Shown here: positions 43,329 through 46,052 of the stretch, piece after piece
How the letters are laid out: every line of letters begins with the position of its first letter
How positions within the stretch are numbered: the stretch's first letter is position 1
From: Bacillota bacterium
Lineage (GTDB): Bacteria > Bacillota > Sulfobacillia > JAJYWN01
Direction of reading: 5' to 3'
NCBI GenBank assembly: GCA_021791495.1
Contig: JAJYWN010000023.1
Span: forward strand, 1-64,000
Length of the DNA stretch: 64,000 nt
Notes under the pieces: generated by a model
Database searches by the model: none
What the model saw: the letters and a program-made list of their open reading frames with translations, nothing else
What the model was told of the DNA's origin: nothing
Made by a program: the position numbers and the translations under genes

Positions 43329-44099
43329 TTGGAGGACGACAAGATCAGACCTGATCGCGTATTCGTGTCAGTGGAAGTGCTCCTATCGAAGGACCTAACC
43401 TTGCCGGTCAAGGGGCTATACGCCGCGATGCTGGCCTTGACCGGAAAGGACGGTGTCTGCAACCTTACCGAACGACAGCTAGCCGATTTGGTCATGATCG
43501 CCGATAGGAGGACCATTCGCAAGCACATCGGGACCCTTATCAAGGCCGGCCTTGCCCAACTCCAGGAGCGAAGCCGCTACGTTATGCTGGATCCGGTGAC
43601 CAACTACTACGCCACTCTTCTTAAGGACGCCCAGCGCCGACTGGCCAGAGCTGAGTACTTTGGCGAAGCCCTGATGCGCGAGTGGCTCACGCTCTTGATC
43701 GCCGTCCAGAACTACATTGACAACGCCCGGCTGCCGTTCATGCGTAACCCACAGAGTCGCGAACTTTTCGAACTTGACCGCCACTATCCCCCGCGGGTGG
43801 CCTTCGAGTTCAACGGACCCCAACACTACGGGCCGACGGTGAAATACCCCGACCCGACCAAGGCTGCGCAGCAGGAAGGGCATGACCTTATGAAACAAGG
43901 TCTGTGTACCATCCATGGCATCACCTTTGGTGGTCGTGAAACCCGAGGATCTAAGCTGCGAAGGAATGCTGAAGAAGATAGGGAACTTGCTGCCGTTGCG
44001 ACCGGGGGCCGCAGAAAGCCCAGTGGCCGCATTCCTCGAGAAGGAGAGCCGGCGCTACCGCAGCCGTTACTTCGACTGAACGACAAGTGGCGACCCTGA
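43329..44099 (+). CDS. Winged-helix protein with C-terminal nuclease-like domain
   Basis: 256-residue protein. The N-terminal part (about 1-85) is a helix-turn-helix/winged-helix of the type used in replication initiators and phage regulators (LLSKDLTLPVKGLYAAMLALTG, LTERQLADLV, DRRTIRKHIGTLIKAGL). The middle and C-terminal part (about 130-215) has PRVAFEFNGPQHYGP, a lysine-rich helix and GLCTIHGITF, a layout resembling restriction-endonuclease-fold domains of the VSR/DUF559 kind (E-F-N-G-x-Q-H, then K, then GI). Catalytic residues are not fully assigned. The TTG start follows GGGAGAAG. The last codons lie in a tandem repeat that continues into the spacer. Confidence 0.65.
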   Translation: MEDDKIRPDRVFVSVEVLLSKDLTLPVKGLYAAMLALTGKDGVCNLTERQLADLVMIADRRTIRKHIGTLIKAGLAQLQERSRYVMLDPVTNYYATLLKDAQRRLARAEYFGEALMREWLTLLIAVQNYIDNARLPFMRNPQSRELFELDRHYPPRVAFEFNGPQHYGPTVKYPDPTKAAQQEGHDLMKQGLCTIHGITFGGRETRGSKLRRNAEEDRELAAVATGGRRKPSGRIPREGEPALPQPLLRLNDKWRP

Positions 44100-44160
44100 A
44101 GAGTGGCGACCCTGGAAGGCGGCGACTCTGGAAGGCGGCGACCTAAATAGTGACGACCGT
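44088..44160 (+). repeat. Short degenerate tandem repeats at the end of the nuclease-like gene
   Basis: Units of 14-17 bases with core GGCGACCCTGGAAGGC recur about five times: 44088-44103, 44104-44120, 44121-44136, 44137-44150, and a weaker unit from 44151. The first unit overlaps the stop codon of the gene, so the tail residues may have come from repeat growth. Confidence 0.6.
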
Positions 44161-44182
44161 GCCTGGCGCTTGTCCCGAAAAC

Positions 44183-44191
44183 TGCTATACT
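44183..44191 (+). promoter_or_regulatory. Extended -10 promoter for folC
   Basis: TGCTATACT at 44183-44191 is an extended -10 element (TGn plus TATACT, five of six). The -35 region is weak. The start point would fall near 44198, about 16 bases before the riboswitch. Confidence 0.5.
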
Positions 44192-44213
44192 AAGACGGCA
44201 AGGTAAGTACATA

Positions 44214-44357
44214 GGCAGAGTAGGCGTCGCGCGTTAAGTGCCCTGGGATGGGAAGTCGCCCGGGGACGAAAGGGAGCAACTGGTCTACCAGTGCGGTGGC
44301 GTAGGCCGCCGGCGGCGGGTCCGGGAGCCCTGCGGTGCAACGTCGCATCCGCTGTCC
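44214..44357 (+). ncRNA. Tetrahydrofolate riboswitch (folT type)
   Basis: The aptamer elements of the tetrahydrofolate riboswitch are recognisable in order: P1 strand GGCAG (44214-44218), the conserved GCGTTAAGTG (44231-44240), the GGGATG block (44245-44250), the GGGGACGAAAGGGAGC region, GTGCGGTGG (44291-44299), and the closing GCATCCGCT (44345-44353) with the P1 partner up to 44357. An extra GC-rich hairpin lies between the last two blocks, making it longer than usual. It precedes folC, which fits folate control. The downstream hairpin at 44413-44464 is the likely switch. Confidence 0.85.
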
Positions 44358-44412
44358 ACTACAGTGGGGCCTGAAAGGCTCGCTTCCGATGGAGGCGAGT
44401 TCCTACTTAGCA

Positions 44413-44464
44413 GAAACCCCCTCCTATAGTCGGCACGGTCTCTGCCGCGATATGAGGGGGTTTC
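44413..44464 (+). promoter_or_regulatory. Hairpin masking the folC ribosome site
   Basis: GAAACCCCCTC (44413-44423) pairs perfectly with GAGGGGGTTTC (44454-44464). The right arm contains GAGGGGG, the best ribosome-site sequence before the folC start at 44475. A smaller CGGCA/TGCCG stem lies in the loop. So the hairpin can hide the site, giving translational control. Confidence 0.65.
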
Positions 44465-44474
44465 GACATACGCG

Positions 44475-46052
44475 ATGACATATGACGAAGCGCTGGATTA
44501 CATTCACGGGCTGTCCCGTTTCGGCAGCAAGCTCGGCTTGGGGCGGCTACAGGTCTTCTTAGCGAGGCTCGGGCACCCGGAGCGTCACATGAAGTACGTT
44601 CACGTCGCCGGCACCAACGGGAAGGGTTCGACCACCGCCATGGTGGCTTCGATGTTGCAGGCCGCCGGTTTCAAGACCGGGATGTACATCTCGCCGCACC
44701 TGACGACTTTCAACGAACGCATCGCCGTGAACGGTGAACTTGTCCCCGATCAGCGGGTGGCCGAGTTGGTGGCCAAGCTGGCGCCGGTGGCCGAAGCCAT
44801 GGCGGCGGAAGCGGCGGCGGCCGGGTTGGTCGGCACCGCCGGCTTGGGAGGCGACGGCACTTTGGCCGAACACGCCACGGAATTCGAATTCATCACGGCC
44901 ATGGCCTTCGAGTACTTCCGTCAGGAGGGCGTGGACGTGGTCGCCCTTGAAGTCGGGATGGGCGGGCGCTTCGACGCCACCAACATCATCGCCCCCCAAG
45001 ACTGTCTGGCCGCGGTGATACCGACCATCGGCTGGGACCACATGGAACGGCTCGGCGGCACGTTGGAGAAAATCGCTTTCGAAAAAGCCGGGATCATAAA
45101 GCCTGGTAGACCCGTCATCACCGGTACACGCCCAGCTGGGGCCCTGGCCGTCATCGAGGCCGTGGCGCGGCAGAACGGCGCACCGCTGTGGACGGTAGCC
45201 GAGGAAAGTGAACAGGCGGAGTGGCTGGACGAGGCGGCAAGGTCCAGGGTCGACGAGGCCCTCGCGCAGACTTCGATCGGCGGGGCGCCTATCACTGGCC
45301 GAACCTTCGGCGCGGTGGCCGAAGCGGGTTCGGGCGCGGGGGACGAGGCTCGCGGGGCTGGCGGGCGTTATGGCACCGCTGATACCGGCACCATCCGGTG
45401 GCGGCCCAACGGTCCCTTGACCGCTGATGGACAAGTCTTCGACCTCGCCATGCCCGACGGAACCATGTACCGCGACCTGCGCACCCGTCTCCTCGGACGC
45501 CACCAGCTTGACAATGCTGCCTGCGCCGTCGGGGCCATCCACGCCTTGCGGGGGAGCGGCCGGGCCATCGGCGAGGAAGCCATTCGGACCGGGTTGGCCA
45601 GGGCGACCTGGGAGGGCCGTTTCGAGATCATGGCGCGCCGCCCCTGGATCGTGGTGGACGGTGCGCATAACCCCGAAGGGGCGGCCGTGCTCCGCCGCAC
45701 CTTCGAGACCCTTTTCCCCGGGCGGCAGCCCGTGATGGTCATGGGCATCCTCGGCGACAAGGCGGTCGGGCCCGTCGTGGATACCATCGCTCCCATGGCC
45801 CGCGAGATCGTGGCCACGTCGCCGAACTACCAGGGGAGGGCCCTGCCGGCCGAAGCCCTGGCGGTGGAACTCCGCTCCAGGGGAACGCCGACCAGCGTGG
45901 CGCCGTCCATCGCCGCCGCGGTGGATGAAGGGTTGCGCCGGCTGCGGGGACCGGACGACGTCCTCCTTGTCACGGGGTCTCTGTATCTCGTCGGTGACGT
46001 GCGACCGATGGTTCTGAAGCACCTGGCGGCGGCACAGCCGGTCATGTTCTAG
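44475..46052 (+). CDS. folC: Folylpolyglutamate/dihydrofolate synthase FolC
   Basis: 525-residue Mur-ligase-fold enzyme that adds glutamates to folates and may make dihydrofolate. It starts MTYDEALDYIHGLSRFG, has the ATP loop VAGTNGKGSTTAM near residue 43, the folate-loop LTTFNERIAVNG near residue 77, VALEVGMGGRFDATN near residue 157, and the C-terminal RPWIVVDGAHNPEGA near residue 393. The protein is about 90 residues longer than usual because of an Ala/Gly-rich insert near residues 110-135 and a polar, low-complexity insert near 280-312. It is under the riboswitch upstream and ends at a perfect hairpin. Confidence 0.95.
   Translation: MTYDEALDYIHGLSRFGSKLGLGRLQVFLARLGHPERHMKYVHVAGTNGKGSTTAMVASMLQAAGFKTGMYISPHLTTFNERIAVNGELVPDQRVAELVAKLAPVAEAMAAEAAAAGLVGTAGLGGDGTLAEHATEFEFITAMAFEYFRQEGVDVVALEVGMGGRFDATNIIAPQDCLAAVIPTIGWDHMERLGGTLEKIAFEKAGIIKPGRPVITGTRPAGALAVIEAVARQNGAPLWTVAEESEQAEWLDEAARSRVDEALAQTSIGGAPITGRTFGAVAEAGSGAGDEARGAGGRYGTADTGTIRWRPNGPLTADGQVFDLAMPDGTMYRDLRTRLLGRHQLDNAACAVGAIHALRGSGRAIGEEAIRTGLARATWEGRFEIMARRPWIVVDGAHNPEGAAVLRRTFETLFPGRQPVMVMGILGDKAVGPVVDTIAPMAREIVATSPNYQGRALPAEALAVELRSRGTPTSVAPSIAAAVDEGLRRLRGPDDVLLVTGSLYLVGDVRPMVLKHLAAAQPVMF

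Follow-up and report, generated by a model that had tools for sequence, protein, structure and literature searches.

A preliminary description of a 64-kb stretch of DNA (the window, i.e. the whole stretch that was analysed) placed a tetrahydrofolate (THF) riboswitch in front of folC and saw in it a variant, with an enlarged aptamer and a stem hiding the ribosome site of the gene. The question raised by this locus is twofold: how would such a switch act on folC, and where does its leader come from?

The aptamer and its gene

The search with the Rfam covariance models, proposed as a check in that description, returned RF01831 as the sole match in the window at gathering thresholds; it spans the full model, positions 1-99 of 99 (E 4.9e-13), and the window genome (G000) gave no second RF01831 match. 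Its score, well above the cut-off, supports the THF identity claimed earlier, and the aptamer blocks lie at the claimed sites: GCGTTAAGTG at 44231-44240, GGGATG at 44245-44250 and GCATCCGCT at 44345-44353. As for THF-II (the folE motif), it gave no match at gathering thresholds in the window. Both blocks of the THF-I pseudoknot are present and complementary, and the aptamer contains GAGUA and AUGGGAAGUCG, which may hold the ligand-contact bases. By sequence and structure, the element is recognisable as a THF-I riboswitch, whose ligand would be THF. In this class, the pseudoknot joins L3 and the P1-proximal joining region (PMC9881143, PMC11477058) and the ligand-contact bases are U7, U35 and U42 together with A8, A34 and G44 (PMC11477058).

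The downstream ORF is FolC, as had been proposed: it exceeds the TIGR01499 cut-off of 162.65 bits more than twofold (Table 1) and also matched Mur_ligase_M and Mur_ligase_C. Its start lies 118 nt 3' of the aptamer, and the THF-I match is thus in the 5' leader of a folate gene. Immediately 5' of this leader, a 256-aa ORF (43329-44099, + strand) has an HTH_36 match below cut-off (19.8 bits, cut-off 25) and no match in the NCBIfam search. Also observed, just 5' of the promoter, was a short tandem array (44086-44143; period 16, 3.6 copies, unit AGTGGCGACCCTGGAAG).

Table 1. Features of the folC leader, in positions of the window
Feature	Position	Strand	Basis
Likely promoter element TGCTATACT, extended -10; the window's -35 is poor	44183-44191	+	Sequence; TATACT alignment
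THF-I riboswitch aptamer	44214-44356	+	RF01831, 66.9 bits (gathering score 36)
P1 5' strand, GGCAG plus AG	44214-44220	+	Perfect complement of element Y
Part of loop L3, GGATG	44246-44250	+	CATCC at 44346-44350 is its complement (class-typical long-range pseudoknot)
Enlarged P4 arm, two inner hairpins (44279-44292, 44294-44311)	44272-44330	+	Sequence, predicted folds
P1 3' strand, CTGTC	44352-44356	+	RF01831 match
GTGGGG	44364-44369	+	Identical in 4/4 same-order leaders
Platform insert with 9-bp hairpin (44379-44387/44391-44399)	44371-44408 (limits approximate)	+	Absent in three related leaders
SD-hiding stem-loop, 11 perfect pairs (44413-44423 with 44454-44464)	44413-44464	+	Sequence, folds
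Element Y, CTCTGCC, complement of P1 5' strand	44440-44446	+	Loop part of the SD-hiding hairpin
Presumed Shine-Dalgarno (SD), GAGGGGG	44454-44460	+	Sequence; aligned with three folT leaders
ATA where the relatives' folT ATG aligns	44468-44470	+	Alignments
folC, folylpolyglutamate/dihydrofolate synthase, 525 aa	44475-46052	+	TIGR01499, 377.9 bits

Homologous leaders in front of folT

Overlooked so far was the homology of this leader with the folT leaders of related genomes. Three genomes of the same order (G001, G002 and G003) carry a THF-I switch in front of folT (TIGR04518 above cut-off), and the alignment of the four leaders matches up the TATACT element, the aptamer with its invariant blocks, GTGGGG, the CCCCC arm, CTCTGCCGCGA, GAGGGGGTTT and the start region. 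The folT ATG of the relatives, 7 nt after GGGGG, aligns with an ATA in the window; the folC ATG comes after it, at 44475, and the GGGGG-to-ATG gap is 14 nt before folC. What is new here is that three same-order genomes have the promoter, aptamer and platform, in homologous form, in front of folT.

Concerning the folate genes, FolC of G001 and G002 is encoded on contigs other than that of the switch, and none was found above cut-off in G003. In the window genome, the best FolT match reached 42.7 bits for a cut-off of 60, and G001 FolT used as query against it gave no match; the 42.7-bit candidate (contig C8) is better fitted by TIGR04002, although still below cut-off (69.1 of 120). Dihydropteroate synthase (DHPS) was above cut-off in none of the four same-order genomes, the window genome included, vs. 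12 of the 14 control genomes. A 39-bit DHPS match in the window genome is a 282-aa ORF beside a large methyltransferase-like ORF, presumably, judged by eye, a pterin-binding methyltransferase. As a whole, the lineage of the window appears to be without FolT and without folate synthesis by the DHPS route, and we infer that these same-order bacteria take up folate. Since the window genome is 97% complete in 81 contigs, the missing FolT match falls short of proof, and the gene could sit in the unassembled part.

In the lineage of the window, folC thus seems to have come under a leader that originally served folT. A folC-folT operon that lost its folT is also thinkable as the origin, because one locus of the survey below (L160) has folC followed by FolT.

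The platform between aptamer and folC

The perfect 11-base stem covering GAGGGGG is present as described, its strands being GAAACCCCCTC and GAGGGGGTTTC; when the 118-nt platform was dinucleotide-shuffled 500 times, a perfect stem of at least 11 bp arose twice. Folded in isolation, the platform (44355-44500) reached -59 kcal/mol vs. a shuffle mean of -45.31 (z -3.46). A second feature that had escaped attention is element Y, which complements the P1 5' strand of the aptamer without a mismatch: CTCTGCC is found in all four same-order platforms, vs. 42 to 82 of 5000 shuffles per platform. GTGGGG, for its part, may pair with the CCCC of the sequestor 5' arm in the ligand-free form, a pairing seen in the forced folds of G002 and G003.

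A search for intrinsic terminators between 43900 and 44600 gave no terminator-like site. A consensus promoter scan of the same interval reported a single site, at 44475-44504 within folC; the TATACT element, which aligns in the four same-order leaders, was not reported.

Predicted folds of the bound and free forms

When P1 was forced, the predicted energies were -118.6 (window), -87.2 (G001), -113.1 (G002) and -106.0 kcal/mol (G003); when the pairing of the P1 5' strand with Y was forced instead, they were -115.0, -84.6, -108.3 and -100.5 kcal/mol, the Y-paired form being less stable by 3.6, 2.6, 4.8 and 5.5 kcal/mol, respectively. The mean unpaired probability of the SD was 0.0, 0.11, 0.0 and 0.0 in the P1 form vs. 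0.72, 0.45, 0.49 and 0.49 in the Y-paired form. In all four leaders folded, the predicted minimum differs from both forced forms: the unconstrained minima (-129.5, -88.0, -114.3 and -107.4 kcal/mol) all keep the SD hidden. The hidden ribosome site of the preliminary description is thus supported by the predicted folds, in which the free form is never the minimum. Because the minimum of the window breaks P1 and yet hides the SD, the SD hairpin might stay shut; and because the minima hide the SD, the free form would need kinetic folding or the help of a protein or of the ribosome.

THF-I loci in the class and the phylum

The comparison set consisted of 113 oriented THF-I loci, 20 from the class and 93 from an even draw of the phylum. 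In the class, 19 of 154 genomes gave 21 matches, of which one partial copy was left out; in the draw, 90 of 398 genomes gave 95 matches, and two of these duplicated loci of the class set. On these large sets, Rfam matching was run with stricter filters, with which weak matches are lost. The partial copy (L015, at the end of contig C44 of G003) has 89 nt identical to the start of L011 and probably represents that leader, interrupted by a break between contigs. Platforms were compared in 109 loci, after exclusion of L080, L095, L123 and L153, which have no assigned target ORF or start, and 111 aptamers were compared for the part 3' of the ACGAA block, L168 and L171 being without this block.

Targets were assigned by similarity to G001 FolT or to the FolC of the window: a FolT-like ORF follows in 107 of the 113 loci, a FolC ORF in three (the window, L160 and L172) and neither in three. 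From the other direction, none of 22 FolC loci from named genomes had RF01831 at gathering score. folC is an uncommon and already reported THF-I target, PMC9881143 listing folC, folE and folT as genes under THF-I control. In L160 (G220, contig C44), the switch is followed by the folC ORF and then by the FolT-like ORF, and the platform is predicted to fold with its SD, AAGGAGGU, paired. The platforms of L160 and L172, judged by eye, are not homologous to that of the window, and their aptamer inserts lie at least partly elsewhere.

Three further loci were inspected by eye. L123 (G262, contig C1) is followed by a 245-aa ORF and then by a 189-aa FolE-like ORF. In the stretches examined, L153 (G186) and L095 (G509) are without FolT- or FolC-like ORFs; the former has an ECF-transport-like ORF, the latter a small ORF and a BirA-like ORF.

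As for aptamer size, the 143 nt of the window are the longest among the 113 loci (median 97 nt; at least 110 nt in 15), and the 86 nt on the 3' side of the ACGAA block are the longest of the 111 aptamers (median 39 nt; at least 50 nt in 12). The extra GC-rich hairpin noticed in the aptamer region is real and belongs to the P4 arm. P4 arms are also large in the folT leaders of G001, G002 and G003 (59, 75 and 76 nt, respectively), so that the enlargement follows the lineage and not folC.

Complementarity between the platform and the P1 strands

In 85 of the 109 platforms, pairing involves 75% or more of the SD, vs. 49.6 ± 4.8 (maximum 64) in 40 control replicates with the upstream part shuffled; a paired ribosome site is therefore common among THF-I leaders. 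Concerning P1, a complement of its 5' strand with a run of at least 5 was found in 66/109 platforms (20.0 expected from shuffles) and a complement of its 3' strand plus flank with a run of at least 7 in 85/109 (18.4 expected). Platforms also tend to match the P1 strands of their own locus. The exact complement of the own P1 5' pentamer occurs in 56/109 platforms vs. 33.7 ± 3.2 when strands are swapped among loci, in 13/49 vs. 3.1 ± 1.6 for pentamers other than GGCAG, and in 30/69 vs. 16.2 in a less redundant set; each of these pentamer tests gave 0 of 2000 permutations. For the P1 3' strand plus flank, complements of at least 8 pairs occur in 72/109 platforms vs. 27.9 swapped, and in 45/69 vs. 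16.7 in the less redundant set. All these permutation tests ignore ancestry.

This covariation of the platform with both P1 strands in the 109 loci suggests a four-strand exchange as the switching step, X being the platform arm complementary to the P1 3' strand. Of 52 loci that contain X as well as Y, 49 have X first, and in 51 of 60 loci tested the SD partner falls between P1 and X. This arrangement fits a nested exchange, in which P1 and X:Y would coexist in the bound form, and the P1 3' strand would pair with X inside the P1-5':Y pairing in the free form. In the order of the window, the X half is weak (longest run 4 to 6 in the four leaders) and Y complements 7 bases without a mismatch in 4/4, so that the role of anti-sequestor would more probably fall to the P1 5' strand there.

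Proposed mechanism and alternatives

The element is very probably a THF-I riboswitch through which abundant reduced folate would shut down folC translation, in a leader descended from a folT leader. An OFF switch at the level of translation is the likeliest mode, the lowering of expression by THF being carried over from the class: THF-I suppresses expression, in tandem with ZTP switches (PMC9481103), and P1 stability depends on the ligand through the pseudoknot (PMC11477058). THF binding would hold the pseudoknot and P1 (44214-44218 with 44352-44356), and the downstream hairpin would form; the GAGGGGG would be buried in it, and ribosomes would therefore not start on folC. Without THF, P1 would open, GGCAGAG of its 5' strand would pair with CUCUGCC in the hairpin, and this pairing would break the hairpin and free the ribosome site.

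The hairpins at 44379-44399 and 44413-44464 are strong and GC-rich, and a coupling of Rho-dependent termination with translational riboswitches figures in the title of a published work; control of transcription, whether by intrinsic or by Rho-dependent termination, could be read into them. The stem covers the ribosome site, however, as is also predicted in the folC leaders L160 and L172, and the interval from 43900 to 44600 has neither U-tract nor terminator-like site, which makes this the least probable of the readings considered. It is also improbable, if a little less so, that a folT leader has decayed here, its aptamer and hairpin surviving without any switching and folC translation being constant and low. 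The 14-nt gap, the ATA in place of the relatives' ATG, the 38-nt platform insert and an SD that stays hidden in the folds unless the Y pairing is forced would all suit such decay, but the aptamer core is nearly intact, with the blocks common to G001-G003 and a full-length 66.9-bit match, and the 11-bp stem and CTCTGCC were retained despite changes in adjoining bases.

The link between Y and the P1 5' strand is more delicate. X could be a copy of the P1 5' strand that serves to bind the P1 3' strand, Y merely pairing with X; family-wide, the complement of the P1 3' strand plus flank is indeed the stronger signal and X comes before Y, so the swap signal of Y may be partly indirect, via X. We regard this as a possibility of some substance, though a doubtful one, as the order of the window combines a weak X with a perfect 7-base Y complement reaching beyond P1. 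Equally tentative is the full scenario built on the direct link: that the exchange (P1-5':P1-3' with X:Y when bound; P1-3':X nested in P1-5':Y when free, the anti-SD being trapped between) is common to THF-I leaders, that mainly its P1-5':Y half was kept in the order of the window, and that the complete leader moved from folT to folC at the loss of FolT, from a control of uptake to one of retention.

Of the preliminary interpretation, the THF-I class, the folC target and the SD-hiding stem stand, while the novelty seen in the control of folC, in the SD pairing and in the large P4 does not. Compared with THF-I switches before folT, the window has the same aptamer, pseudoknot blocks and SD-hiding hairpin, and in same-order genomes the same promoter and platform; it differs by its folC target, a larger and branched P4, the platform insert and the longer start-codon gap. 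With THF-I switches before folC it shares the target. THF-II likewise has a folate ligand and blocks the ribosome site (PMC6800512, PMC9881143), but its aptamer has two helices, of which P1 contains the ribosome site, and it stands before folE in Gram-negative bacteria.

FolC adds glutamates to folate and retains it in the cell. The locus is an apparent case of a complete riboswitch leader changing its target gene between related genomes, with a junction that can be traced: an ATA stands where the folT ATG aligns, and the folC ATG lies 7 nt further. Through the P1 5' and CUCUGCC strands, the switching step of THF-I leaders is made testable.
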